The notes under the pieces are model-generated. The model was not told the DNA's origin, ran no database searches, and saw only the letters and a list, made by a program, of their open reading frames with translations. 64,000 bases of DNA, taken from positions 62,001-126,000 of the forward strand of contig JAKVKP010000002.1 of NCBI GenBank assembly GCA_022484805.1, given 5' to 3'. A program made the translations under genes and the position numbers. Below, piece after piece: positions 1,260 to 61,519 of this stretch. Within the stretch, counting starts at the first letter, position 1, and every line of letters begins with the position of its first letter. This DNA is from Streptococcaceae bacterium. GTDB taxonomy: Bacteria; Bacillota; Bacilli; Lactobacillales; Streptococcaceae.

Positions 1260-2132
1260 CTACTTTCTTTTATTGTAAATGGGTTTTCTTTGTTCTATTT
1301 CATTTAACAACTGCAAATAATTTTGATATCTGAAAGTTGTGATTTTATGATGCTCTACCGCTGATTTAACAGCGCAATCTGGCTCATGTGTATGTGTGCA
1401 GGCTCTAAATTTACATGATTGACCAAATTCTGAAATCTCGATAAAATAACTGGAAAGCTCATTCGCCTCTATTTCTCTTAAATCAATTGATGAAAAGCCC
1501 GGTGTATCAGCAAGCAAGCCATCAAATACTTCATGCAATTCAACATGACGTGTTGTATGCTTTCCCCGACCTAAATGCTTGGATATTTCGCCAGTAGCCA
1601 GATTTAATGCCTCATCTATTCGATTAATCAATGTTGATTTTCCAGCACCAGTCTGCCCGATAAACACGGCAATCTTATCGACAAATTCTGAACGAATTGA
1701 CTCAAATTCTGAATAATTTAAACAAACCTGATAACCAATCATCTGATAAATTTTTTGAATTTCTAAAATATCAGTTTGATCAGCAAGCAAATCTGTTTTT
1801 GAAATATAGATTATTGGCTTAATCTTTTTAGATTCTAAAATAACTAAAAATCGATCTAATAGGTTACTAGAAAAATTTGGTTCAATAGCACTAATCACAA
1901 TCACGCCAATATCGACATTGGCAACTGGTGGTCGTATTAACTCATTCTTCCTTGGCAAAATTTTTAATAAATAACCATCCGTTAGGCTGGTTGATTCAAA
2001 CTCACAGTAGTCACCGACCAAAGGTGTAATCTTTCGTTTTCTAAAATTCCCCCGTCCTCTAGTCTGGTAAACCTGTCCCTGATGTTCAATATAATAAAAG
2101 CCACTCAATGATTTTATAATCGTTCCTTGCAA
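1260..2132 (-). CDS. rsgA: Ribosome small-subunit maturation GTPase RsgA
   Basis: Circularly permuted GTPase that checks late 30S subunit assembly. The order seen is an N-terminal OB-fold (about residues 1-70), the G4 motif ISKTDL, then G1 GQTGAGKSTLIN and G3 DTPGFSS, and a C-terminal zinc motif with CKFRAC, H and C ligands. 290 residues is normal length. Translation appears to begin at TTG 2132-2130, preceded by a TTGGAGA ribosome site. It heads the rsgA-rpe-thiN group. No prkC-like kinase gene precedes it; the region upstream is the tRNA-Ser promoter and the prophage left end. Confidence 0.95.
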   Translation of the reverse strand: MQGTIIKSLSGFYYIEHQGQVYQTRGRGNFRKRKITPLVGDYCEFESTSLTDGYLLKILPRKNELIRPPVANVDIGVIVISAIEPNFSSNLLDRFLVILESKKIKPIIYISKTDLLADQTDILEIQKIYQMIGYQVCLNYSEFESIRSEFVDKIAVFIGQTGAGKSTLINRIDEALNLATGEISKHLGRGKHTTRHVELHEVFDGLLADTPGFSSIDLREIEANELSSYFIEISEFGQSCKFRACTHTHEPDCAVKSAVEHHKITTFRYQNYLQLLNEIEQRKPIYNKRK

Positions 2133-2383
2133 CTGATCTCCAATCTATCTAAATGAATAAAAATTTGAAATTGCGAACTATTTTCTCTTATTTTACCATA
2201 CCTAGCCACCATTAGATAAACGACTTCTATATTTTCTCTTCGTTATTTCTCAACAAATCATTTGCCAGCTCAAAATTTCTAGAATTATTTTCAATCAATT
2301 AATTTGAATATAAAAATTTACTTATTAATAAAAATAAAGGTACTAATTGTGTAATTATATTTAGAAATTTTATGCTAATTGTG

Positions 2384-2411
2384 TTGCATTATTTTTGACA
2401 AAGCGTAGAAT
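2384..2411 (+). promoter_or_regulatory. Candidate original promoter of the tRNA-Ser gene, stranded at attL
   Basis: TTGCAT (2384-2389), a 16-base spacer and TAGAAT (2406-2411) lie about 40 bases upstream of the 5' half of the tRNA-Ser sequence at the left prophage end. Prophage insertion separates this promoter from the complete tRNA 39.7 kb away. Promoter prediction by eye; start site untested. Confidence 0.45.
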
Positions 2412-2442
2412 ATTATCTTGAAAGCAATTATTGAATAATTTC

Positions 2443-2486
2443 TACTCTCGGAAAGTTGGCAGAGTGGTAATGCAACGGACTCGAAA
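2443..2486 (+). repeat. attL: 44-bp core identical to attR, carrying the 5' half of tRNA-Ser
   Basis: Identical to 42093-42136. It contains 7 bases upstream of the tRNA and tRNA bases 1-37, stopping just past the CGA anticodon. To its right the sequence diverges into prophage DNA, so this is a non-functional tRNA 5' fragment that retains the native upstream region. Confidence 0.92.
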
Positions 2487-2498
2487 AACGTAAATTAC

Positions 2499-2598
2499 TT
2501 TTTTACAGTATACTACAGTTTTAAAAAAGCTTAAAAATCAACGTTTTCTAATAACAGTTTTTTACAGTTTCTAAATAATTTGGCACAAATTTGGCACA
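2499..2598. repeat. Left arm-type repeats near attL
   Basis: An 11-mer TTTTTTACAGT occurs at 2499-2509 and 2558-2568. A 26-base block (2573-2598) with two TTTGGCACA units is exactly repeated at 42064-42089 beside attR. Such repeats flanking the core are expected arm-binding sites for a phiLC3/Tn916-class tyrosine integrase or its excisionase. Function is inferred from position and duplication. Confidence 0.65.
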
Positions 2599-2605
2599 AG
2601 AAAAG

Positions 2606-2630
2606 GACTAGATTATTCTAGTCTTTTTTG
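2606..2630. terminator. Bidirectional terminator at left prophage edge
   Basis: GACTAG (2606-2611), loop of 6, CTAGTC (2618-2623), with six T on the plus strand and CTTTTC on the minus strand. It overlaps the stop codon of the YolD-like gene. It would end cargo transcription before attL and stop transcripts from the stranded tRNA promoter from entering the prophage. Confidence 0.7.
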
Positions 2631-2998
2631 TATATCTCGACATATTCAATTTCATCAATATTATAAGGTTTGCCAGCTATGAATACATTTCCTTCATCAA
2701 ATCCATTCACAACTCCTATTACATACTCCTGCTGATTCCATCCCAAATCTATTTCGCCAACTTGCACCAGAACTACTTTGGTATGCGAAAACGCAAAATA
2801 TAATAATTCTGTTATCTTATTTATTTCCATCTGTTCGTGGCGATAGACTACGTGATTGTCTGCAGCTTCTTCTTGTTTGAGTGCTGTTGTATGTTCAGAT
2901 AAAAACATTCCTTGCCATTTCATCATACCTCTGTCGTGATAATCACGAATCAAAGGATCACTTGCAATTTCTCTAATATGTTCTTCGTGAGATTTCAT
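2618..2998 (-). CDS. YolD-like family protein
   Basis: 126-residue cytosolic protein. The N-terminal half has DRGMMKWQGMFLSEH (about residues 22-36), matching the RGxxKWxxxxLxEH pattern of YolD-like proteins; the C-terminal half is a small beta-rich segment. YolD-like proteins are often encoded by phages or next to Y-family polymerases, but none is here. The gene is the last prophage gene before attL, in the cargo slot, and ends in a bidirectional terminator. Its role is not known from the sequence. Confidence 0.72.
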   Translation of the reverse strand: MKSHEEHIREIASDPLIRDYHDRGMMKWQGMFLSEHTTALKQEEAADNHVVYRHEQMEINKITELLYFAFSHTKVVLVQVGEIDLGWNQQEYVIGVVNGFDEGNVFIAGKPYNIDEIEYVEIYKKD

Positions 2999-3069
2999 AT
3001 AATCAGCCTTTCTATTTCAATATTATTGAAATGACTACAACCAAATTATAACTTGAATTCTCAAAAATG

Positions 3070-3098
3070 CAAAAAAAAAAAGCTGATTAATTTCAGCC
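3070..3098 (-). terminator. Terminator downstream of the EamA gene
   Basis: Read on the minus strand: GCTGA, 6-base loop, TCAGC, then eleven T. It lies between the EamA transporter stop and the YolD-like gene, so the latter should have its own promoter. Confidence 0.75.
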
Positions 3099-3138
3099 TT
3101 TTAATTTCCATCTTACAGCTTAATATATTTTATAAATT

Positions 3139-4047
3139 TTAAATATTAATTTGAGCTCTCTTGGATGATATAAATTGTAAAAATGTAATTCCAATAATCA
3201 TTATTATTCCCAAAATACCATAGATATTAAAAGAAATATTCAAAAATAAAATTCCTAAAATAGTCGCAGACAGGGGTTCAACAGAACCTAAAACACTCGC
3301 CTGGGTAGCACTAATATAGGTAAGACTTTGTAGAAAAAATAAATACGCCAACATAGTGCCAAAGATCACAACAAATAGTATCTCTATAAAGGCTATTAAA
3401 GAAATATGAGGCATCATCTTCCAAATTTTATAATATAAACCTACTATAATTCCACCTATCAACATTGCCCACCCCACAATTGGAATCGAACCATATTTCT
3501 TTAAGAGTGCTTTTGGCATCAATGTATAGATAGCTGCAGCTACAGCAGATAATATCCCCCATATTACCGCATCCAAAGGCAAAGAAAGTGAGTTTAAATC
3601 TCCCTGTGTTACTAGTAATACAGTTCCTAAAATAGCAATCATCACTGATATTGAATCTATTCGTTGTGGTAACTTTAATGTTCTAATTGCTAAATAAATA
3701 ATAATTATAACTGGTGATAAATATTGTAATATAGTAGCCGTGGCAGCATTCCCAGTGCTAATTGCCATAAAGTATGCTAATTGTACAAAAGTCATTCCTA
3801 AAATTGAGAATAACATTAAGTGTATTGTATCTGATTTATTATTAAAAATAGAAAATATTTTCTTTTTTGCTACCACTCCATATCCCAACAAAAGAATTCC
3901 AGAACAAAACATCCTAACTGAAACAAGCCATGTAGGATTCAAATGATGATACTCAAACAAATTTTGAGCAACAACCCCAGAACATCCCCATAATAATGGA
4001 CCTAAAACTGCTAAGAACAAACCTTTATATTTATATTTATCTTTCAT
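3139..4047 (-). CDS. EamA/DMT family permease (prophage cargo)
   Basis: 302 residues with about ten hydrophobic segments arranged as two EamA repeats: residues 10-140, starting GLFLAVLGPLLWGCSGVVAQNL, and residues 155-295 with the internal SATQASVLGSVEPLSATILGILFL motif typical of the second repeat. The family exports small metabolites such as amino acids or drugs; the substrate cannot be read from the sequence. It lies alone between two minus-strand terminators within the prophage cargo slot, so it is probably an independently transcribed lysogenic-conversion gene. The opposing reading frame within it is a shadow. Confidence 0.9.
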   Translation of the reverse strand: MKDKYKYKGLFLAVLGPLLWGCSGVVAQNLFEYHHLNPTWLVSVRMFCSGILLLGYGVVAKKKIFSIFNNKSDTIHLMLFSILGMTFVQLAYFMAISTGNAATATILQYLSPVIIIIYLAIRTLKLPQRIDSISVMIAILGTVLLVTQGDLNSLSLPLDAVIWGILSAVAAAIYTLMPKALLKKYGSIPIVGWAMLIGGIIVGLYYKIWKMMPHISLIAFIEILFVVIFGTMLAYLFFLQSLTYISATQASVLGSVEPLSATILGILFLNISFNIYGILGIIMIIGITFLQFISSKRAQINI

Positions 4048-4129
4048 TACTCCTCCATAAAACTCCTTTAAAAACTATATATTTTTTATATAATATCACT
4101 CAAAGATATAAATAACCATATTAAAATAA

Positions 4130-4158
4130 ATGCAAACAAAAACCCACCGTGTGGTGGG
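4130..4158 (-). terminator. Strong minus-strand terminator upstream of the EamA gene
   Basis: Minus strand: CCCACC, ACAC loop, GGTGGG, then TTTTTGTTT. It sits where antisense read-through from the sce7726-like gene across the beta-like gene would otherwise enter the EamA gene. Confidence 0.75.
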
Positions 4159-4269
4159 GGTAATTATTTAAATATAATGTACTAATCGGAAAGTAATTTA
4201 GAAAACACTTGCATTATTTTAATAAGTGAACATATAATTATCATATCAATAAAAAAGGAGGATTTAATT

Positions 4270-5337
4270 ATGACTTATTACTATCCCATATTAAAAAAAG
4301 GCAATTCCGAGATTAAAGCATTAGAGGAATTATGTAAAAAAATGGAAAACCCAAATGAACAATTATTACCAATTATTGAAGCACCACAAAAATCTAATTT
4401 TCAAAATTGGGAAAAAGATTTTAGAACGTTTGGAAAATATTTAAATAGGAAGATTCCAAATCTTAACTTTGCATTTCAATATTCCACAGCATTTTCGAAT
4501 ATAGGCGGTAATCCTGAGGAATCTTGGGCTAGTCAAAACGGCTTGAATATTGTTGAATATATTGATGAACGAATTTCTGAAGGGTGCCCAAATTATATAC
4601 CGTGTTTTAATTATGATGATCCAGATTGGGTACTTGACAGCATCATTTTAGATTCGTCTCGTACCATCATGGTAAGAATAGAACCTCATAAATTTGAAAA
4701 TGGAATTGATAACATTATTATACCTGGTACAAAAAGTAAATTTGTAGAAAAATTTGGTGGAAATCAAATTATTTGGCTATTAGATTTTTATAATCACTTT
4801 TCTGATTTAAATCGTACTTCAAATTTGATATCCTTATTAGACTCAACCAATACTGGAAAAAATGTAATATTCGGTGCCACCTCTTGTCCAGAAGATGCGA
4901 GTTCTATCAATCATAGTAATTTTTCGATAGCGAGTGTTAGAAGTGACATAAATAGTTTTTTTGCGCTTAGAGACACATTTCCTGGATTAAGTTTTGCAGA
5001 TTATACTGTGCGTTTGAAACCCGTTCCTTCTACGGAACAAAGAAATCAAATCAATATGAATAATACGTATTTCAAAATTTTTTATACTACTGATAAAAAT
5101 TACATGATTGCCAAATCAGGATTGATAAAAAAGCAAAGGAAAGAACCAAATCATTTAACAATTCAGGATATTTGCAAAATTATAGTTAGTTCTCAATATT
5201 ATTCAGGTAGTGGTTATTCTTGGGGTGATGAGCAAATTGAAAAATGTGCTAAAAATATCATTTCTATACATGACCATCAGATGCCAATACAAATCGGCAT
5301 CAATCATCACTTAGCTGCAACTTTAAATCAATTATAA
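4270..5337 (+). CDS. Beta/sce7725-like family protein
   Basis: 355 residues. It starts MTYYYPILKKGNSE with an EL-rich helix, as in beta-family and sce7725-type proteins (YYP-l-kGkq-El-AL-el). The C-terminus has GSGYSWGDEQIEKC and GINHHLA, the most conserved features of the family (SWGD and NHH near the end). No known catalytic motif is evident. A strong AAAAAGGAGG ribosome site precedes the ATG. It converges on, and overlaps by 10 bases, an sce7726-like nuclease candidate. The sce7725 and sce7726 families take their names from neighbouring genes, so the pairing is meaningful. It lies in the prophage cargo slot. A defence, exclusion or toxin/antidote role is inference. Confidence 0.72.
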   Translation: MTYYYPILKKGNSEIKALEELCKKMENPNEQLLPIIEAPQKSNFQNWEKDFRTFGKYLNRKIPNLNFAFQYSTAFSNIGGNPEESWASQNGLNIVEYIDERISEGCPNYIPCFNYDDPDWVLDSIILDSSRTIMVRIEPHKFENGIDNIIIPGTKSKFVEKFGGNQIIWLLDFYNHFSDLNRTSNLISLLDSTNTGKNVIFGATSCPEDASSINHSNFSIASVRSDINSFFALRDTFPGLSFADYTVRLKPVPSTEQRNQINMNNTYFKIFYTTDKNYMIAKSGLIKKQRKEPNHLTIQDICKIIVSSQYYSGSGYSWGDEQIEKCAKNIISIHDHQMPIQIGINHHLAATLNQL

Positions 5338-5888
5338 TTTCTTTTTCTAAGAGTATCATAAATATATTTTTTTATGATACTCTTTCTATTATCTTTTAAA
5401 ATAATGTCGAAAAGTTGTTGTTTTCTGTATGATTTTATTTTTTTAGGATATCCCAGTAAGTCAATAAGCTCGTTATATTCATTTTTCCAAAGGAGATTTA
5501 ATAGTGCCTCTTCGTCCTGTGTTTTTACTTTTCTACCTTTTCTTAGTTCTCTCAATCCTTTTTTATCTTTACGAACTGTCATAATTCCCCACCAAGATGG
5601 GATTATTTTTTTTACTTCTTTTATATATTTCTGATCAGTAACAATAGTCATTCTTTCAAATATTTTATTATAATTTTCGATTTGTTGAGGTAGTCTAGAT
5701 AGATTATCTGATTCACTCTTTAATTCGTATCCATGTAAAATCCCATTCACTACAGCTATATCAATCCTTGATTCACCATTAATTAATCCCATTTCATTAA
5801 TTATTCTAGTGTTTTTCTCACCATCATGTAATTGATACAATTCTCGTAAAGTAAGATTTCTGATATCTTTATCTTTCATTTTTATCAC
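5328..5888 (-). CDS. sce7726-family protein, PD-(D/E)XK-like nuclease candidate
   Basis: 186 residues from GTG 5888-5886, chosen because AAGGAG lies 8 bases upstream; a more upstream GTG overlaps that ribosome site and the first ATG is too far. The core GESRIDIAVVNGILHGYELKSESD region (about residues 37-60) has the D...ExK layout of restriction-like nucleases, followed by LPQQIENY and a SWWGIMTV strand that are hallmarks of sce7726 proteins. The basic C-terminus (residues 100-186) could bind nucleic acid. It converges on the beta-like gene with 10 bases of overlap, and its 3' end contains a long perfect hairpin. Nuclease activity is predicted, not shown. Confidence 0.75.
   Translation of the reverse strand: MIKMKDKDIRNLTLRELYQLHDGEKNTRIINEMGLINGESRIDIAVVNGILHGYELKSESDNLSRLPQQIENYNKIFERMTIVTDQKYIKEVKKIIPSWWGIMTVRKDKKGLRELRKGRKVKTQDEEALLNLLWKNEYNELIDLLGYPKKIKSYRKQQLFDIILKDNRKSIIKKYIYDTLRKRNYN
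5349..5384. terminator. 14-bp perfect hairpin shared by the convergent pair
   Basis: AAGAGTATCATAAA (5349-5362) and TTTATGATACTCTT (5371-5384), 8-base loop, then TTTCTATTATCTTTT on the plus strand. It lies within the last codons of the sce7726-like gene and just after the beta-like stop, so it would terminate the plus transcript and could fold in either mRNA. Confidence 0.7.
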
Positions 5889-6270
5889 AATTAACACTCC
5901 TTAATAATTGCTACAGTTAGATTAACAAAAGTCTTCGGTCTAATCAAATGAATTCATATTTTTTTATTAACGCTTAAGAAAAAATTATATTTTATATTCT
6001 TAAAATTATTATTTTGCATTAACAAAAATATCTTTTTTCTAGCTTGATCTTGAGTCAATCTGTTTCTTGTTTTATATTAAAATTAGTAAAAGAATGGTTC
6101 CTATTGATGCTAGATATTTTTATTTCAATAGTTTCCTTTTGTATAAACAGCTATTTGACTAGAAATAATTACAGACTTCAGCTTTCAACTTTTTTATTTT
6201 ATACATAAACTTTACCGTACATTCTCCAACTCCAACAATCGCCTGTCTTGATAATTCGTATTTCAAATAA
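5889..6270. other. AT-rich intergenic region, promoter side of the sce7726-like gene
   Basis: No coding potential recognised. On the minus strand, TTGATT (5942-5947), 17 bases and TAATCT form a plausible promoter about 50 bases before the sce7726-like start. The remainder to the endolysin terminator is featureless AT-rich sequence. Confidence 0.4.
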
Positions 6271-6297
6271 AAAGGCCCTCGTAATTAAACGAGGGCG
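6271..6297 (-). terminator. Terminator of the phage late (lysis) operon
   Basis: Minus strand: GCCCTCG (6297-6291), 8-base loop, CGAGGGC (6282-6276), then CTTTTTATTT, starting 7 bases after the endolysin stop. It separates late genes from the cargo slot. Confidence 0.88.
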
Positions 6298-6303
6298 TGA
6301 GTG

Positions 6304-7593
6304 TTATTTAATTTTGTAGCTTACACCAGCATAAATTAAATCACTAGATAAGCTATTTAAAGCTTTAATATTTTGAACAGTCGTACCGTATTTTGAAGCA
6401 ATACCACTTAATGTATCGCCCCAAACTGCAGTGTAACGAACAGTCGTTGTTGAAGCTGATTGTCCATTAATTTGTAAAATTTGACCAGGATAAATCAATG
6501 ATGGATTACTCAATCCATTTAGCGATTGTAACGCTTGCCAAGACGTACCATAAGCTGAAGCAATCGAACTTAGATTATCACCATATTTAACAGTATATGA
6601 CGATGTAGATGCTGTTTGAGTTTGACTGGTACTTGCAGTGTTTACGCTGATAATTTCTGTATCTGATTTATTAATCCATGAAAGAATACCACTTAACAAT
6701 ACTCGGTCACCACTAATTTGTTGGACTGTATATGAATTACCTTTAACCCAAGATGGAATAGCTTCACCAGTCGCCCAGTTAGTTGATGAGAAGTTAACTT
6801 TGACAGTGTCACCAACCTTTATCTCAGCCTTTGGTGTTGCATTCGCTTGTTCACCTTCGTTAACTGCGGGTGTTTCAGTCGATGGTGTATTTGCTACGCC
6901 ATAACCATTATCAGTAATACCAGTTAAATCAATATTTCCATCTAAGCCACCAGCAACATATGTTGAGGTGAATTGATAGATTCCAATGACATCTAAGCTT
7001 GGGAATACATTATAATTTGGTGTTGGTGTTACATTGTAATCTGGATAAGCGGCCATCCATAATGAGTCTGGAAACTCGGCAATGATTTGTTGGTAATACA
7101 CATTAGCCACCGTGTATGGCTTGTAGCTATAATACATCGGTGTATAACCTGCTGCTTTGATTCTACGCATTCCGTACAAAATTGCATTGGTATTGGCTTG
7201 CTTATCGCCACTTGCACCACTTTCATAATCAAGGGCAACAATTGAACCTTTAGGCGTCTGAATTTTAGGCAAGAAATAATCAAGGGTTACCTTACTTAAA
7301 TCTGTGCTACCACCCACTTCGTACCAAATATAAGTGTGCGCACGTTTACCTTGTGCAATAGCTGATGCTACTTGCGTACTGTATGTTGATTGATTGTAGA
7401 TACCACCTGCATTGCGACCACCAATTTGAGCAATCGCAAACTTATCATGTGAATAGCCGAATTGACCATACGTGCCTTGATAAACTGCCCAATCGACACC
7501 TTGGTCACCCACTGCAGCAAGCGAAGTTAATGGTAATGCAAAAAGCCCTAACGCAACCGCTAGGACTGAGATTAATTTATTTAATTTTTTCAT
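6304..7593 (-). CDS. Phage endolysin: Sec signal peptide, GH25 muramidase, SH3b, two LysM
   Basis: 429 residues. A typical signal peptide ([20 protein letters not shown], cleavage near LAA-VGD at about 27) precedes a GH25 lysozyme domain (28-225) with GVDWAVYQG and the catalytic VALDYESG strand. Then come an SH3_5-like segment (about 250-318) and two LysM modules (about 332-377 and 385-429) starting [13 protein letters not shown] and [13 protein letters not shown]. It hydrolyses peptidoglycan glycan strands. The signal peptide implies Sec export, as known for some lactic acid bacterial phage lysins such as Oenococcus fOg44, with holin triggering activation. It is the last gene of the late operon; AAAGGAG precedes the ATG. 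Confidence 0.95.
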
Positions 7594-7605
7594 TCAATTA
7601 CTCCT

Positions 7606-7860
7606 TTATTTGATAATACTTATCATCTCAAATGTCTTAGAGAGATAGCCTACAGCTACTAAAACCATGAAAAATATTAAAATCATCAACAAAAATAAAA
7701 TTAAACTATTATAAAATAAATAATCTAAAATCTGATAATTCTTAATATCATACATAGTAATTTTTATCCAATCAATAAACGTTTTACACATTCCTATACA
7801 TAAAACCACACAGATAATCGTTGAAATTATCTGTGTAAAAGTTTTAAATATTGTCCCCAT
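7606..7860 (-). CDS. Small two-TM membrane protein of the lysis cassette
   Basis: 84 residues with two long hydrophobic segments (about 7-27 and 47-73) and basic ends. It lies between the Dp-1-like holin and the endolysin with 3- and 12-base gaps. It has no recognisable family match by eye; position and topology suggest a second holin, antiholin or pinholin-type component. Confidence 0.6.
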   Translation of the reverse strand: MGTIFKTFTQIISTIICVVLCIGMCKTFIDWIKITMYDIKNYQILDYLFYNSLILFLLMILIFFMVLVAVGYLSKTFEMISIIK

Positions 7861-7863
7861 TAA

Positions 7864-8079
7864 TTACTCCTTTTCTTCATCTTTGGTTAGCAATGAATAT
7901 GTCTTAGCTGAAACACCAATCAAACTACCGATGAAAACTGCTAATGCATTGATAACTAAAACCGCAATATCTGTATATTGCCAAGCTACAGCAGAACCAA
8001 TCGTTTTGATTAACACTGATAAAGCTGGAAAAAAGATAATTGCAATCCATTTCAATTTGTCATAAGTTTCGTTTTGCAT
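7864..8079 (-). CDS. Phage holin, Dp-1-like family
   Basis: 71 residues. The N-terminal YDKLKWIAIIFFPALSVLIKTIG and the second segment AVLVINALAVFIGSLIGVSAKTY match the layout of the short Dp-1-type holins (YDxLKWIA-LPA, then FLGxLLGIS). Two membrane segments and a charged C-terminus (KDEEKE). It would permeabilise the membrane at the end of the lytic cycle and sits directly upstream of the lysin module. Confidence 0.82.
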   Translation of the reverse strand: MQNETYDKLKWIAIIFFPALSVLIKTIGSAVAWQYTDIAVLVINALAVFIGSLIGVSAKTYSLLTKDEEKE

Positions 8080-41016: not shown

Positions 41017-42069
41017 ATGGCAAGAAAAAGAGATAAAGTATGGCAAGCCGAAGTCAGTTACAAAACTGTTGATGGGAAATTTAAAAAATGGCGCAAGGGT
41101 GGTTTTAGAACTAAAAAAGATGCTGAACTTGCCGAAAGCGAATTCAGATTAAATAGCATGGCTTTTCTTCAAGCTGATTATTCATTAAGTGATTGGTTTG
41201 AGAAATGGGCAAATCTTTATAAAAAAGATAGTGTAACAGAAGTTACATGGAAAAAATTTGAAACAGTGGTTAAAAACATTGAAAAATACATGCCCGGTGA
41301 AACTTTAAAAACAATAACTCCTGCAAAATATCAGGAACTGCTCAATAATTTTGCAGAGTGCCATTCAAAATCCTCTGTTAAACATTTAAATATGCAAGTT
41401 AGATCAAGTGTCCAATCAGCAATAACTAATCGGATCATACAGTTTGACTTCACAAGAAATGCTGTTATCAATGGCAGCGAAAAAAAGGATGTTGTTTTTC
41501 TTGACTATTCAGATTTCAAAAAGCTTCGAAATTATACAATCAAAAGCGATAATGAAATTGATTTAATAATCTATACTACTTTAATGACAGGTATGAGAAT
41601 TGCTGAAACATTAGGGATTACAGCAAAAGATATACATAATGATTTTATAAATGTAAATAAAACTTATGATTACAAAATTACTGGCGGATTCGCACCTACT
41701 AAAAATAAATCATCTATTAGAAAAATATACATTGATTCAGAAACTAGCAATATATTGAATAACCTCAAAAAAGAATCAAAAAAAAATGATAATAAACCCA
41801 TCTTTGATATTTTTTCTATAAATACAATCAACAAAAGACTAAAATATTTATCAGAAGAACTATCGTTAAAAAAACACAACTTGCATAACCATTCATTAAG
41901 ACATACCCATGCAAGTGTGCTATTATATAAAGGTGTATCTGTTCAAAGTATTAGTCAAAGATTGGGACATAGTACAGTAACTACGACTCAGGAAATATAT
42001 ACTCACTTGATAAAAGAAATGAAAATTCAAGAGGATAAAAAAATATCTAACGCTTTGACTGCCAAATAA
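41017..42069 (+). CDS. int: Phage integrase, tyrosine recombinase
   Basis: 350 residues. N-terminal AP2-like arm-binding domain (KVWQAEVSYKTVDGKFKKWRKGGFRTKKDAE), SAM-like core-binding domain (about 55-145), and catalytic domain with LMTGMRIAETLGI (Arg I), HNHSLRHTHASVLL (His-x-x-Arg) and LGHSTVTTTQEIYTH (His and Tyr nucleophile). It cuts and joins at the 44-bp tRNA-Ser core. The stop lies 23 bases before attR, and the coding end overlaps an arm-type repeat. Confidence 0.96.
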   Translation: MARKRDKVWQAEVSYKTVDGKFKKWRKGGFRTKKDAELAESEFRLNSMAFLQADYSLSDWFEKWANLYKKDSVTEVTWKKFETVVKNIEKYMPGETLKTITPAKYQELLNNFAECHSKSSVKHLNMQVRSSVQSAITNRIIQFDFTRNAVINGSEKKDVVFLDYSDFKKLRNYTIKSDNEIDLIIYTTLMTGMRIAETLGITAKDIHNDFINVNKTYDYKITGGFAPTKNKSSIRKIYIDSETSNILNNLKKESKKNDNKPIFDIFSINTINKRLKYLSEELSLKKHNLHNHSLRHTHASVLLYKGVSVQSISQRLGHSTVTTTQEIYTHLIKEMKIQEDKKISNALTAK

Positions 42070-42089
42070 TTTGGCACAAATTTGGCACA
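42064..42089. repeat. Right arm-type repeat beside attR
   Basis: Exact copy of 2573-2598, containing two TTTGGCACA units; overlaps the integrase stop codon and ends 3 bases before the core. Confidence 0.7.
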
Positions 42090-42092
42090 TTA

Positions 42093-42136
42093 TACTCTCG
42101 GAAAGTTGGCAGAGTGGTAATGCAACGGACTCGAAA
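42093..42136 (+). repeat. attR: 44-bp core, 5' half of the intact tRNA-Ser
   Basis: Identical to 2443-2486. Continues into the host 3' half of the tRNA, so the functional tRNA in the lysogen has prophage-derived upstream DNA. Confidence 0.92.
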
Positions 42137-56819: not shown

Positions 56820-59800
56820 TTAAATTTGATTAATCCTTTTATTTGCATTTGCTCGATATGTGCCATTAACCTCATTAAAGCTACTTATAAGTTTTTTCTT
56901 TGAAAGATATGATAATAAATTCCTATTTGTCTCATTCATCTCAAAAGAAGTCCGACCTTTACCATTTATTAAACCTAAATAGCCAGTAAGATTCAGCTGA
57001 TTAAATTTATCTCTTAACTCACTTTTTGAAAATACTTGAATTGCCCTACTAAATAATAAACGTCTTTTATTTAACGGGATATCTACATTTTTCAATATAT
57101 CATTCAGCAAATTTTTATTTATACTAATCTTTTCCTCAAGGATAATATTAATATTCTGAGTTGCTATGTCATAAACGAGACTTTTAGTACTTAGCGAATA
57201 TTGTTCGTAGTCCACACAAAGAGTACCTAAATCATTTTGATGAAATTTTGTCTGTAAGATATAGTTCATAAGATTAGTTCTATAACCCTTGCCAGAAATT
57301 GATATTGATTCCGCAATTAGATTAACAATTTTCTTTTGTATAGAGAACGGTTGGTCCAAATTATAATCTAATACATTGTTTAATTCTTCGACATTATATA
57401 TATCATCACCATCAGCAATTTGAACATAAAGATCAATATTTTTAGAAATAAAGTAAATTACACTATCAGGGTATTGTGAACGAAAATTAAGCAAAGAATT
57501 TTTAGTAAGTTTTATTCTATCTGTATCTATTAAAATATCTACTTTTTCTTTTGGAATTCCCTCCACAGGAAAACCATCATTATACCGTCGATTCATTCCT
57601 ACCAATATCTTTTTATACGCAATGTTTTCTAAAGAAAATTCCTTAAGAGTAGAGACAAAGAAAGAACTTCGCAAGTCATCTTCATACTTTTCTCCAGTAT
57701 TCGAAATTTTAAAAACTAGTTCGGATTTATTTTTATTAGTAAATTCAATAAGATTTTTATTCCATGTAGATTCATTAAAAATAAAGTAATCAATAATATT
57801 AGATTCATTTGGACGGATTATATTATGCTTTAACACATAATCCCATAAATCCTTTTTATGAATGTTACTCAAGAGCAAATCATTCACTGAAACGGTATCA
57901 ATATATCGTTTTCGAATCTCAATAGATAATTTTTCGTTATTTAATAAGTCATATATATAATTTATATCGTCCTCAGTCTTCTCTTTAGACAGACTTAAAT
58001 ACTCTTCAAGATATTTTTCTATATTTGTATCTATATATTCAACGATAGGTTCATTTTCTAACATTTTAATTATAGTATAATTTTTATGCTCAACGTCCTT
58101 TATGCTATTTTTGTTATGAAAGAAATTTAGAACCTCAGAAACATTATTCATATTAATATCATAAAGAGAATTTTTGTAAATATATCTTGAAAGAGAAATA
58201 TTTATTTTAGAAAATACCACTGTTTTAAATTTAATATTGAACTTCCGTAATTTATCAAGAAAATCTTCCGAAGGCTGACTTATTTCATTCAAGAATTCAG
58301 GCTGACTTTTTATAAACTCGATTATTTCTTTTTTCGAAGAATCTATTTTAAATAAATCTTCTTGATTAAAATTTTCAATAAATTCAACTAATACTCTACT
58401 TTTTTCATTATTCGTAAATGTGTTATTTCTAATTAAACTTAAAAATAATTCAGGAGCATGATTTTTCCATTCCACTATGACTTTTTTTACCAAATTACTA
58501 TCTTTACTAATAAACATTTTTACTAAAAAATCTATCTTATCTTCACGAAGAATCATGCCGAATATTTTATCTAATCTATCCGATCTACCAATTAAATTAG
58601 AATCGTTTAAAATATATTCAAATAGATCATAATTCAATGACTCTATCTTTAAAAACGCCTCCGAGCTTAATCTGTCATACACTTCTGAAATATTGCTTAG
58701 TTTAAAATCCCACTCTAATTTTCGCTCATCCGTAATACTTCTCAGAAATTTTTTATCATTCAATTTTAAACTATTTGGATAAAAATAAGTGAGATAGTCT
58801 TCATATCCTTCATCCATATATCCATTCACTAATATGAAAACTAAAAGATCAAAATAGTCACTTTTTTTAATATCATCGAACGATTCAATTTTTTTAGAAA
58901 AGTGTTCTTTTTGAATTTTTTCAATATCTTGTCTGAGAATGAAATTAAATATCTTTTTTGCTGACAAAATCCTTTTTTCATTTTCTAATAAATTAATTTC
59001 GGTAGTTAATTTTTCAAGTTTTTCTTTATCCAATATTATTTTTCTTCGGTCAATAAAATCTTGATTTCTCTCAATATCAGTAAAAATTTCCTCAAAAGAA
59101 ACATTATATTGCCCGCCATAACTATGTTTGCTTACTGTAACACTCCCATTTTTTAGAGCATAAACAAATTCTGATCTGTTTTTAAAATTCTCTACTTTTT
59201 TCCCGTCAACAATGACGTTATAGTAATTATCAGGCATATTGAAAAAAAGTGTATATAATTCTTTTTCTGATTTTAGTTCTTCTTGATTGGCGTTCTCAAT
59301 ACGCCTTCTAAGATCTGCAATTTGATCATCTAATGATTTCTTTTCTCTGTCGATATACTCTTTCTTTTCAGAAAAAACTTGATACACTAAACCTTTGTTC
59401 AGCTGTAAATTAGCAAAATCATTTGGAAATATATTTTTATATACAATTATAGCAAGAAGATTATTATAGTTTAAAAATTCAGACTCTTTCAACCTTCCTT
59501 TGTATATAATAAACTCATTGCAAATATTTTTTAATAGTCTCATATCATCAATATATAAAGATAAGTCCTGCAAAAAACTTTTATCGAACTTGTCAAAAAT
59601 TTTGTCTTCTTCCAGTATTTCTTTTAACTTTTCATACGAATTTGAAGAGTTAATTACCGGTAGCACAGGAATAATAAAATCAAAAAACTTAGTCCTATCT
59701 TTAGAAATAAACATATCATCTTTTAATAAATAGAGAAAACTTAATTTTTTAAAAGACGATGCGCGCTTAATAACCGTTAGTGAGTTTATATATTTTATTT

Positions 59801-60680
59801 TGCTTAAAAAGGAAAAAATGATTTGGAAGAAGGAGTTTTGTCTAGATTTTTTACGATTATTAACTAATGTGTTTATTTCCTTTAATTTTGAAAAGATAAT
59901 ATTACTATCAAATCTATCGATATCCTCAAATACTACTACATCAGCTTTTGAATGGTCAAAAAGATAAATAACATCATCTAAGTACTTATCAAAATATGAA
60001 TCTTTTGACTCACTAAAGACTTCTATGTTACTTTCAATATTTTTAGATTTAATTGAAATTGTCTTTAGAATTTTTCTAGATACTTGAGCATACAAAATAA
60101 GATACATTAACCAGGTAAAGAATGCGAATACTATAATGGACACAAAGAGCCTCGACAACGGCAGCATAGACAAATTCAGTACCCACTTTAAAGGTGTAAA
60201 ATTTTGATTTATTTCTGAAGCAAATTTAACCCATGAGTCAAACATAATCAAGTATGTAATTAACAAGAGCATGATTGAAAAAATTAAGCTCCATAATACT
60301 ATTTTTTTCTTACTAATATCATTTTTTACCTTAAAAATAGTTTGAGGTATATTAGTTGATTTTATTTGATGTAATAATTGGTTCAAAATTTTCCCTTCTA
60401 GAATTTTGTTTCTAGTAAGGTTTTTTGATCCTGCCGTTGAATTGTTCTCATTCTCTGTATCTTGAAAATGAGCTAATGAAATGTGAATAAATTTGCGTTT
60501 TTGTTTGGTTTTCATCTTATAGGTTTCGATTATACTACTCTTGCCCGAACCATAGATACCCGTAATAGCTATATTTTTAATTTCTTTATCATTTAAAGCA
60601 TAATCAATAGCCTCTTGATAAATTGTCAAATTTTTTAAATTATTATCTGGAGTTAGTTTTTTAAAATTATACTCTGTCAT
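56820..60680 (-). CDS. YobI-like membrane P-loop NTPase
   Basis: 1286 residues. N-terminal Walker A AITGIYGSGKSSIIETYK (about 38-55), two membrane segments (about 129-150 and 177-198), Walker B DVVVFEDIDRFDS (about 245), and LYLLKDDMFISKDRTKFFDFIIPVLPVINSSNS, typical of YobI/KAP-like NTPases. Residues about 440-600 contain coiled coil; the remaining half is an alpha-helical repeat-like region with many Lys/Asn/Ile. Membrane-tethered NTPases of this kind are often accessory and suspected in phage defence. Very AT-rich; neighbours a serine recombinase, so probably acquired. No partner gene is obvious. Confidence 0.82.
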   Translation of the reverse strand: MTEYNFKKLTPDNNLKNLTIYQEAIDYALNDKEIKNIAITGIYGSGKSSIIETYKMKTKQKRKFIHISLAHFQDTENENNSTAGSKNLTRNKILEGKILNQLLHQIKSTNIPQTIFKVKNDISKKKIVLWSLIFSIMLLLITYLIMFDSWVKFASEINQNFTPLKWVLNLSMLPLSRLFVSIIVFAFFTWLMYLILYAQVSRKILKTISIKSKNIESNIEVFSESKDSYFDKYLDDVIYLFDHSKADVVVFEDIDRFDSNIIFSKLKEINTLVNNRKKSRQNSFFQIIFSFLSKIKYINSLTVIKRASSFKKLSFLYLLKDDMFISKDRTKFFDFIIPVLPVINSSNSYEKLKEILEEDKIFDKFDKSFLQDLSLYIDDMRLLKNICNEFIIYKGRLKESEFLNYNNLLAIIVYKNIFPNDFANLQLNKGLVYQVFSEKKEYIDREKKSLDDQIADLRRRIENANQEELKSEKELYTLFFNMPDNYYNVIVDGKKVENFKNRSEFVYALKNGSVTVSKHSYGGQYNVSFEEIFTDIERNQDFIDRRKIILDKEKLEKLTTEINLLENEKRILSAKKIFNFILRQDIEKIQKEHFSKKIESFDDIKKSDYFDLLVFILVNGYMDEGYEDYLTYFYPNSLKLNDKKFLRSITDERKLEWDFKLSNISEVYDRLSSEAFLKIESLNYDLFEYILNDSNLIGRSDRLDKIFGMILREDKIDFLVKMFISKDSNLVKKVIVEWKNHAPELFLSLIRNNTFTNNEKSRVLVEFIENFNQEDLFKIDSSKKEIIEFIKSQPEFLNEISQPSEDFLDKLRKFNIKFKTVVFSKINISLSRYIYKNSLYDINMNNVSEVLNFFHNKNSIKDVEHKNYTIIKMLENEPIVEYIDTNIEKYLEEYLSLSKEKTEDDINYIYDLLNNEKLSIEIRKRYIDTVSVNDLLLSNIHKKDLWDYVLKHNIIRPNESNIIDYFIFNESTWNKNLIEFTNKNKSELVFKISNTGEKYEDDLRSSFFVSTLKEFSLENIAYKKILVGMNRRYNDGFPVEGIPKEKVDILIDTDRIKLTKNSLLNFRSQYPDSVIYFISKNIDLYVQIADGDDIYNVEELNNVLDYNLDQPFSIQKKIVNLIAESISISGKGYRTNLMNYILQTKFHQNDLGTLCVDYEQYSLSTKSLVYDIATQNINIILEEKISINKNLLNDILKNVDIPLNKRRLLFSRAIQVFSKSELRDKFNQLNLTGYLGLINGKGRTSFEMNETNRNLLSYLSKKKLISSFNEVNGTYRANANKRINQI

Positions 60681-60859: not shown

Positions 60860-61519
60860 ATGGAACAAAGTAGTATGAATAGTAAGTTTAAGAAATTGGA
60901 GAGATTAGATAGCATTAAGGTTGGCTACGCTCGCGTAAGTAGTTTAGACGATCGTCAGAAACTTGGTCTTGAAGTCCAAACAGAGGCATTGGCGGATTGC
61001 TCAATCATCTTTTCAGAAAAGCAATCTGGCAGTAATGACAATAGAGTAGAATTAGACAAAGCAATAAATCTCGCTAAAGATTTAGCTAGTAGTGGAAAGC
61101 AAGTTTCCTTCTGTGTCTACAAAATGGATAGGTTAAGTCGTAAGACCTCTACCCTGCTAAAACTAGTTGAGGACTTAAAAGAGTATGGGATTGAGTTTGT
61201 TAGTATTAAAGAAAATATAGATACAGCAACACCTACAGGGATTTTGATGTACCAGCTACTTGGTATATTTGCCGAGTTTGAACTTAATAACTTGAGACAG
61301 CGAACTCGTGAAGGTTTAGAACAAGCTAGAAAGAATGGTGTCGTACTTGGTAAACAACCAATACCAATAGATAAGAAACAAGAAATAATAAGACTATACC
61401 AAATGAATAGTTTACCAATTAAGACTATTGCAAAACGACTTAAACTTTCTGAGAGCAGTATCTATAAAGTAGCGAGGCAACACGGTTTATCTCGAAGATA
61501 TCCTCAGAAATTACTTTAA
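60860..61519 (+). CDS. Serine recombinase (resolvase/invertase family)
   Basis: 219 residues. Catalytic region VGYARVSSLDDRQKLGLEVQ (Ser nucleophile), FCVYKMDRLSRKTSTLLKLVEDL, GILMYQLLGIFAEFELNNLRQRTREGL (helix E) and C-terminal HTH (IKTIAKRLKLSESSIYKVARQHG). All conserved residues appear intact. Divergent from the YobI-like gene. Could act on the neighbouring island or be a plasmid-type resolvase. Inverted repeats for a phase switch were not found. Confidence 0.92.
   Translation: MEQSSMNSKFKKLERLDSIKVGYARVSSLDDRQKLGLEVQTEALADCSIIFSEKQSGSNDNRVELDKAINLAKDLASSGKQVSFCVYKMDRLSRKTSTLLKLVEDLKEYGIEFVSIKENIDTATPTGILMYQLLGIFAEFELNNLRQRTREGLEQARKNGVVLGKQPIPIDKKQEIIRLYQMNSLPIKTIAKRLKLSESSIYKVARQHGLSRRYPQKLL

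Follow-up and report, generated by a model that had tools for sequence, protein, structure and literature searches.

What do two genes that meet tail to tail near the end of a prophage do, and do they work together? The locus lies in a 64,000-nt stretch of a Streptococcaceae bacterium (assembly GCA_022484805.1, contig JAKVKP010000002.1, positions 62,001–126,000), the whole of which is referred to here as the window. A first-pass annotation, made from the letters alone, had described two genes with overlapping 3′ ends, encoding 355 and 186 residues, and had guessed at a two-component anti-phage or nuclease/antidote system. The layout was borne out by the reading frames, which are convergent and share 10 nt, and the longer product is indeed 355 aa. 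The 186-residue length of the other product holds if translation starts at the in-frame GTG at 5888, located ~8 nt after AAGGAG (read from the sequence), whereas the ORF as called mechanically begins at 5897 (189 aa) and the next ATG is at 5879 (183 aa). A single copy of each gene was found in the genome, and the two are arranged as follows.

4270–5337, plus strand: beta gene, Beta protein of PF14350, 355 aa, predicted TIM barrel (ORF call, profile matches, structure model)
5328–5888, minus strand: gene of a probable sce7726-family nuclease, relative of P4 cII, 186 aa from the GTG at 5888 (ORF call, profile matches, structure model)
5328–5337, no strand: coding overlap of the beta and nuclease 3′ ends, 10 nt (ORF coordinates)

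The families of both proteins were assigned by profile searches. The 355-aa protein matched PF14350 with 112 bits (cut-off 27, E = 5.7e-32, profile positions 1–339 of 342), and its neighbor, previously called sce7726-like, exceeded the curated cut-off of NF033832, the sce7726 family (169.2 bits against 70, E = 8.5e-50, profile positions 2–183 of 184); at such E-values chance family matches are very unlikely. In PADLOC, the PD-Lambda-2_C models matched the window beta and the P4 beta model did not, and the nuclease was labelled cll by a model that P4 cII also matches. The SWGD...NHH motif of beta and the D...ExK motif of the nuclease, both pointed out earlier, are there and are conserved among relatives. 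The name sce7725, which had been attached to beta as well, had to be dropped, since NF033831 (sce7725 family) gave no match to it at E ≤ 1, with the L028 protein serving as positive control (340.9 bits), and the true sce7725-family protein belongs to a co-directional sister operon. That family is linked to beta weakly, through one member (E = 8e-4).

The structure model of beta (pLDDT 94.5) has the look of a TIM barrel. Foldseek returned no match to it at E ≤ 0.001 and a sequence search of the PDB none either; in a second structural comparison 850 of the 999 aligned chains reached Z 8 (best 11.8), so that only the general barrel fold is claimed and no closer relative is named. Of the 14 conserved polar residues of beta, 7 are placed at strand C-ends of the model, compared to 19% expected (p = 0.008, strand slots set by hand). 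Strand C-ends are the usual ligand-binding place of TIM barrels, and this distribution hints at a ligand or active site in the predicted fold. At position 70, where 95% of relatives have Asp, the window beta has Gln.

Regarding the nuclease, the predicted model (pLDDT 92.8) was closest to 3dnx, a structure whose function is not known (Z 9.6, 127 aligned residues, rmsd 3.6), and restriction and CRISPR ancillary (Can2-type) nucleases matched below that Z. We take the matched structures to be members of the PD-(D/E)XK superfamily, consistent with the D...ExK layout noticed at first. By sequence, the best match in the PDB was at E = 0.19, the others being weaker. The catalytic-motif residues D43, E55 and K57 are intact and the E/D/ExK/QxxxY set is complete, in an order that recalls RecB/Cas4-type nucleases. 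All 153 other nucleases collected (80 named, 73 viral) had the Glu, Asp, ExK and Gln, and 149 had the Tyr; since the Asp and ExK were partly selected by the scan patterns of the survey, only the conservation of Glu, Gln and Tyr is free of selection. The protein is thus modelled as a probable nucleic-acid-cutting PD-(D/E)XK nuclease. A part of FAN1 matched by residues 121–182 (Z 7.9, 60 aligned) was short and helical, and was set aside.

The pair had been placed in the cargo slot of a prophage, and it does lie between the lysin gene and an attachment site.

2443–2486, no strand: probable attachment site, a 44-bp repeat copying 5′ sequence of tRNA-Ser (repeat search)
6304–7593, minus strand: lysin-like gene with LysM-type repeats, closing the late genes on this strand (context; named from sequence)
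41017–42069, plus strand: phage integrase-like gene (context; named from sequence)
42093–42136, no strand: 44-bp repeat at tRNA-Ser, opposite prophage end (repeat search)

With the portal-terminase stretch as query, matches at 60–90% identity were obtained to terminase genes of phages from Streptococcus and from other, chiefly Gram-positive, hosts. A second, 26-nt direct repeat adjoins the 44-bp repeats (2573–2598 and 42064–42089). Additional cargo at 2618–4047, an EamA transporter gene and a 126-aa ORF that matched neither Pfam nor NCBIfam, separates the left attachment repeat from the cassette. Outside the prophage, a protein of 1286 aa whose N-terminal part has a P-loop-like motif is encoded at 56820–60680, next to a resolvase-like gene at 60860–61519 (read from sequence).

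The first-pass annotation knew of no established function for these families; however, gop-beta-cII and PD-lambda-2, which between them contain relatives of both genes, are published anti-phage systems. The gop and beta genes of satellite P4 face cII, whose product is named an sce7726 family protein in the RefSeq record of P4. According to the consulted part of Rousset et al. (PMC9122126), gop-beta-cII gives protection from lambda and P1, and the toxicity of gop in the absence of beta is cited there. The window pair is like it in its adjacent convergent Beta-family and sce7726-family genes and in being cargo of a mobile element, whereas it differs in that P4 has gop upstream of beta and the window pair has no gop match, in that P4 cII is 264 aa and the window nuclease 186 aa, and in that P4 beta and cII are separated by 27 nt and the window genes overlap by 10 nt. 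PD-lambda-2, as set out in the portion of Vassallo et al. consulted (PMC9519451), comprises a HigB-like protein, a HigA-peptidase and a P4-antitoxin-like protein, the last of which (PD-lambda-2C, the beta relative) was needed for defence and not for toxin neutralisation. Relatives of its components A and B occur upstream of beta/sce7726 pairs, whereas in that portion of the paper the system has three genes without a nuclease, and the window genome had no PD-lambda-2B match.

Two further arrangements are related. Rac-SA53-type prophages of Escherichia coli carry a two-gene, convergent pair with a 41-nt overlap and no annotated gop, in a prophage type and slot other than the window's; this form was found in 93 of 5426 E. 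coli genomes. In sce7726-sce7725-RES operons an sce7726 nuclease likewise adjoins an sce7725-family protein, whereas the genes are co-directional and accompanied by a RES-domain gene (two genomes tested). A literature search judged by titles and abstract beginnings, with subscription papers mostly outside its scope, found no functional study of sce7725/sce7726.

The pairing had been said to recur in distant bacteria, and a survey of gene neighborhoods agreed. PF14350 was present in 2 of the 295 genomes surveyed from the same family and in 12 of the 398 from the phylum, or 13 distinct genomes with the window's own counted once, and in all 13 (L003 being the thirteenth) an sce7726 gene was adjacent, tail to tail. 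Anchored on the nuclease, the survey found a convergent beta directly downstream in 72 of 80 named loci and in 72 of 73 further viral loci; the former figure leans to the beta-linked clade, because the search model A2 was built mostly from beta-linked nucleases and the named loci are the best 80 of 240. Of the eight named loci without beta, two had been classed automatically as contig edge. A fairer figure comes from the family-model survey: sce7726 occurred in 24 of 398 phylum genomes, 12 of them with beta, 8 with a co-directional sce7725-like gene beside it (L027–L030, L032, L033, L042 and L048, one member tested with NF033831) and 4 with neither seen. Pairwise distances of beta and nuclease correlated with r = 0.705 (n = 68 of 72 pairs, those with beta frames >300 aa; best of 2000 permutations, 0.176), indicating that the two travel together and co-evolve; unequal relatedness is only partly handled here, r being 0.635 among cross-phylum pairs. 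By tblastn, beta had no match in the phage or the plasmid collection, and the nuclease had matches in both. No universal third gene appeared among the 25 largest neighbor clusters within 3 kb, most of which represent one viral lineage.

The slot of the core varies. It lies beside the lysin gene in the window prophage, has a late-regulator-like gene on one side and HNH/terminase-like genes on the other in the near relative L005 (functions read from sequence), and is found between IS1 and mok/hok in Rac-SA53. Partners vary as well: in four Melainabacteria loci (L104, L123, L128 and L129) sce7726 is convergent with a ~711–716-aa protein instead of beta, with a 13-nt overlap, and the one such protein tested contained DUF4388 and DUF4384. 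At a Xenorhabdus locus (L079, 5998–7807) sce7726 is followed by same-strand kinase-like and phosphatase-like genes, without beta (read from sequence).

Toxin modules were then looked for around the pair and in its relatives. In the gaps around the cassette the small ORFs reach 54 aa at most, none being gop-sized. The genome, an assembly 89.7% complete, gave no match to gop (by a model that scores P4 gop and matched no control genome), to PD-Lambda-2_B (by a model that matched three control genomes) or to RES; the window thus has the adjacent beta and cII relatives of gop-beta-cII and no gop match. Elsewhere, 78 hand-chosen neighbors of the 132 upstream of beta were scanned, the 132 nuclease-side genes lying outside the scan, and 10 matched PD-Lambda-2_B and 5 PD-Lambda-2_A; by Pfam, Peptidase_M78 was found in 9 and HigB in 5. 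Therefore, a part of the PD-lambda-2-like loci carry the convergent nuclease. The converse is often untrue: nine PLSDB records around a PD-lambda-2B match included one with beta and sce7726 and one with beta facing a UvrD-helicase gene, and the other seven had no beta by annotation or six-frame search (the L216 and L219 stretches being cut at the start of the circular record). Seven further entries of the plasmid listing (H63, H65–H70) lie ~1.2 kb from an sce7726 match on the opposite strand, by coordinates. On a Sulfitobacter plasmid (L223, 4510–7576) an XRE regulator gene and beta face a UvrD-helicase gene in the usual place of sce7726; an Ignavibacteria beta is preceded by a gene for a 1116-aa N6-methylase/Eco57I-type protein (L127, 3962–7309), and a Granulicella one by a gene for an FRG-domain protein (L120, 7623–8441).

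We infer from these neighborhoods a portable beta/nuclease core with exchangeable toxins, of which the window pair, on sequence grounds, is a toxin-less member related to gop-beta-cII and PD-lambda-2. Through one conserved core, two defence systems published independently would thereby be linked to each other and to a prophage form that has no toxin, and for some PD-lambda-2-like loci an extra component, the convergent nuclease, is predicted.

On our analysis, the earlier guess of a two-gene anti-phage system is the best reading of the pair, with defence as its likely role and a Beta-controlled nuclease as its likely mechanism. Beta, with its predicted TIM barrel, would sense or process an infection cue and would otherwise hold the sce7726 nuclease in check; upon infection the nuclease would cut nucleic acid and stop the phage, perhaps through cell death, and in other loci an added toxin module (Gop, or HigB/HigA-peptidase) would adjoin this core. 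Since no toxin module was found in the window prophage, the nuclease would be the effector there. The complete proposal, a prophage-carried anti-phage module whose two-gene core also occurs in P4 gop-beta-cII and PD-lambda-2-like loci and in which Beta restrains a nuclease effector, we consider evenly poised. Against it weighs that the tested P4 and PD-lambda-2 systems include a third or other toxin, that the window beta departs from its relatives at position 70, and that the gop search covered an incomplete assembly with a model that matched no control genome. Moreover, because PD-lambda-2 appears in the consulted portion of PMC9519451 as three genes without a nuclease, beta can act without the nuclease and the two-gene form may not defend.

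The strongest rival is a classical toxin-antitoxin pair, in which the nuclease would be the toxin and Beta its direct antidote, mainly stabilising the prophage with defence as a secondary effect. The tight pairing and co-evolution of the two genes would fit it, as would the rescue from Gop by Beta in P4, although that antidote role, as cited in the consulted part of PMC9122126, is directed against Gop and the beta relative of PD-lambda-2 was dispensable for neutralising its toxin in the portion of PMC9519451 consulted. In addition, sce7726 stands without beta in 12 of its 24 genomes, in 4 of them with no sce7725-like gene seen either, which a free toxin should not allow, and we consider this rival unlikely. 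It is distinctly improbable that the copy is a decayed remnant of a gop-like system that lost its toxin gene and works no more; the replaced Asp70 and the lack of a toxin gene among the ORFs around the pair and of gop, PD-lambda-2B and RES in the genome are what decay would leave, whereas both frames are open, the nuclease motifs are intact, the same compact pair is found in L004 and L005, and the two-gene form recurs in the Rac-SA53-type prophages counted above. Phage housekeeping, in which the nuclease and its partner would help the phage to process or recombine its own DNA and would play no part in defence, is hardly probable, for although many DNA-processing enzymes have PD-(D/E)XK folds and the closest match 3dnx has no known function, the pair shifts slots between phages, occurs on plasmids too and is adjoined by defence-type toxin modules.

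As to expression, the cassette had been credited with its own promoters and terminators. Promoter-like sites were at chance level (17 seen, 20.2 expected), which does not bear out the former. Terminator-like sites exceeded expectation (4 seen, 0.8 expected), although one of the four is part of the lysin operon and another two are a single hairpin counted on both strands.

5349–5384, plus strand: terminator-like hairpin for beta transcripts, within the nuclease coding sequence (U-rich tail, folding z; kept in L004 and L005)
4143–4158, minus strand: terminator-like hairpin past beta on the nuclease strand, putative function (terminator scan)
6275–6296, minus strand: terminator-like hairpin 3′ of the lysin gene (context; terminator scan)

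The hairpin at 5349–5384 had a folding z of −7.6 and a U-rich tail in the direction of beta; in L004 two of its base pairs have changes on both sides, although the shuffle control, run on three sequences, has little power (56 of 500 reach the score). Because the next minus-strand terminator-like site found, 4158–4143, lies beyond beta, nuclease transcripts could read antisense through beta. A counterpart of that site was present at a comparable place in L005, and the terminator scan found none in L004. No Rfam match was obtained for 2000–8000 at the gathering threshold. In the part of PMC11087260 consulted, the prophage defence gene Tha/Ith of Staphylococcus is governed by an antisense arrangement, tying defence to the cycle of the prophage; its layout is alike, whereas its proteins are unrelated to beta/sce7726, and the analogy goes no further.

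The junction between the genes, a rare conserved coding overlap, is the main curiosity of the pair. The coding sequences overlapped in 69 of 72 named pairs (median 48 nt), by 20 nt or more in 60 pairs and by 60 nt or more in 25. The 336-nt overlap at L122 looks like an over-long reading frame. From the NHH of beta to the LKxR of the nuclease the distance was exactly 45 nt in 50 of 71 aligned pairs, spanning 13 named phyla and four loci without a phylum; this model-based count, for which 1 of 72 pairs was unalignable, replaces a regex count of 37 of 54, and the P4 spacing it gave was a misalignment and was left out. The window pair and those of L004 and L005, its near relatives, have a spacing of 40 nt and an overlap of 10 nt, which we read as a derived state. 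As controls, with simple heuristic ORF calls in both, 0 of 26 convergent pairs overlapped in 400 kb of the same genome, and the flanks of 50 loci had 7 overlaps among 25 such pairs. A survey of 338 genomes looked at 178 convergent overlaps >60 bp between well-characterised genes, of which 54 were perhaps real and mostly conserved only in very close species, such overlaps being rare (PMC2478687, in the part consulted).

This conservation probably reflects a frozen accident, inherited from an ancient pair and devoid of regulatory role, a question separate from the functional readings and weighed independently of them. Two C-termini intolerant of indels would produce the locked spacing, and the phase of the overlap, worked out as 123:132, is the commonest among convergent overlaps of at least 5 nt (49%; PMC2174442, in the part consulted). 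On the other hand, convergence is kept by pairs with little or no overlap (3 of 72 named pairs, and P4), and the different partner in the four Melainabacteria loci is also convergent with a 13-nt overlap, so that the orientation itself seems favoured. A bolder and more doubtful possibility is that the overlap is a working part, a widely conserved and register-locked antisense junction between a defence nuclease and its regulator, through which transcription of one gene would limit the other and which would keep the two from being easily separated in inheritance; a single core, supplied with one toxin or another, would then underlie gop-beta-cII, PD-lambda-2 and the pair without a toxin, and in many PD-lambda-2-like loci a fourth gene, the convergent nuclease, would have been overlooked. 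Between the two, the frozen accident is more likely than the regulatory device. The overlap is visible in record annotation itself, with 47 nt in Sinorhizobium terangae and the 41 nt of Rac-SA53, and in 72 viral loci, many of them near-identical phages, two main spacings were observed, 45 nt and 84 nt, each in 31 loci.
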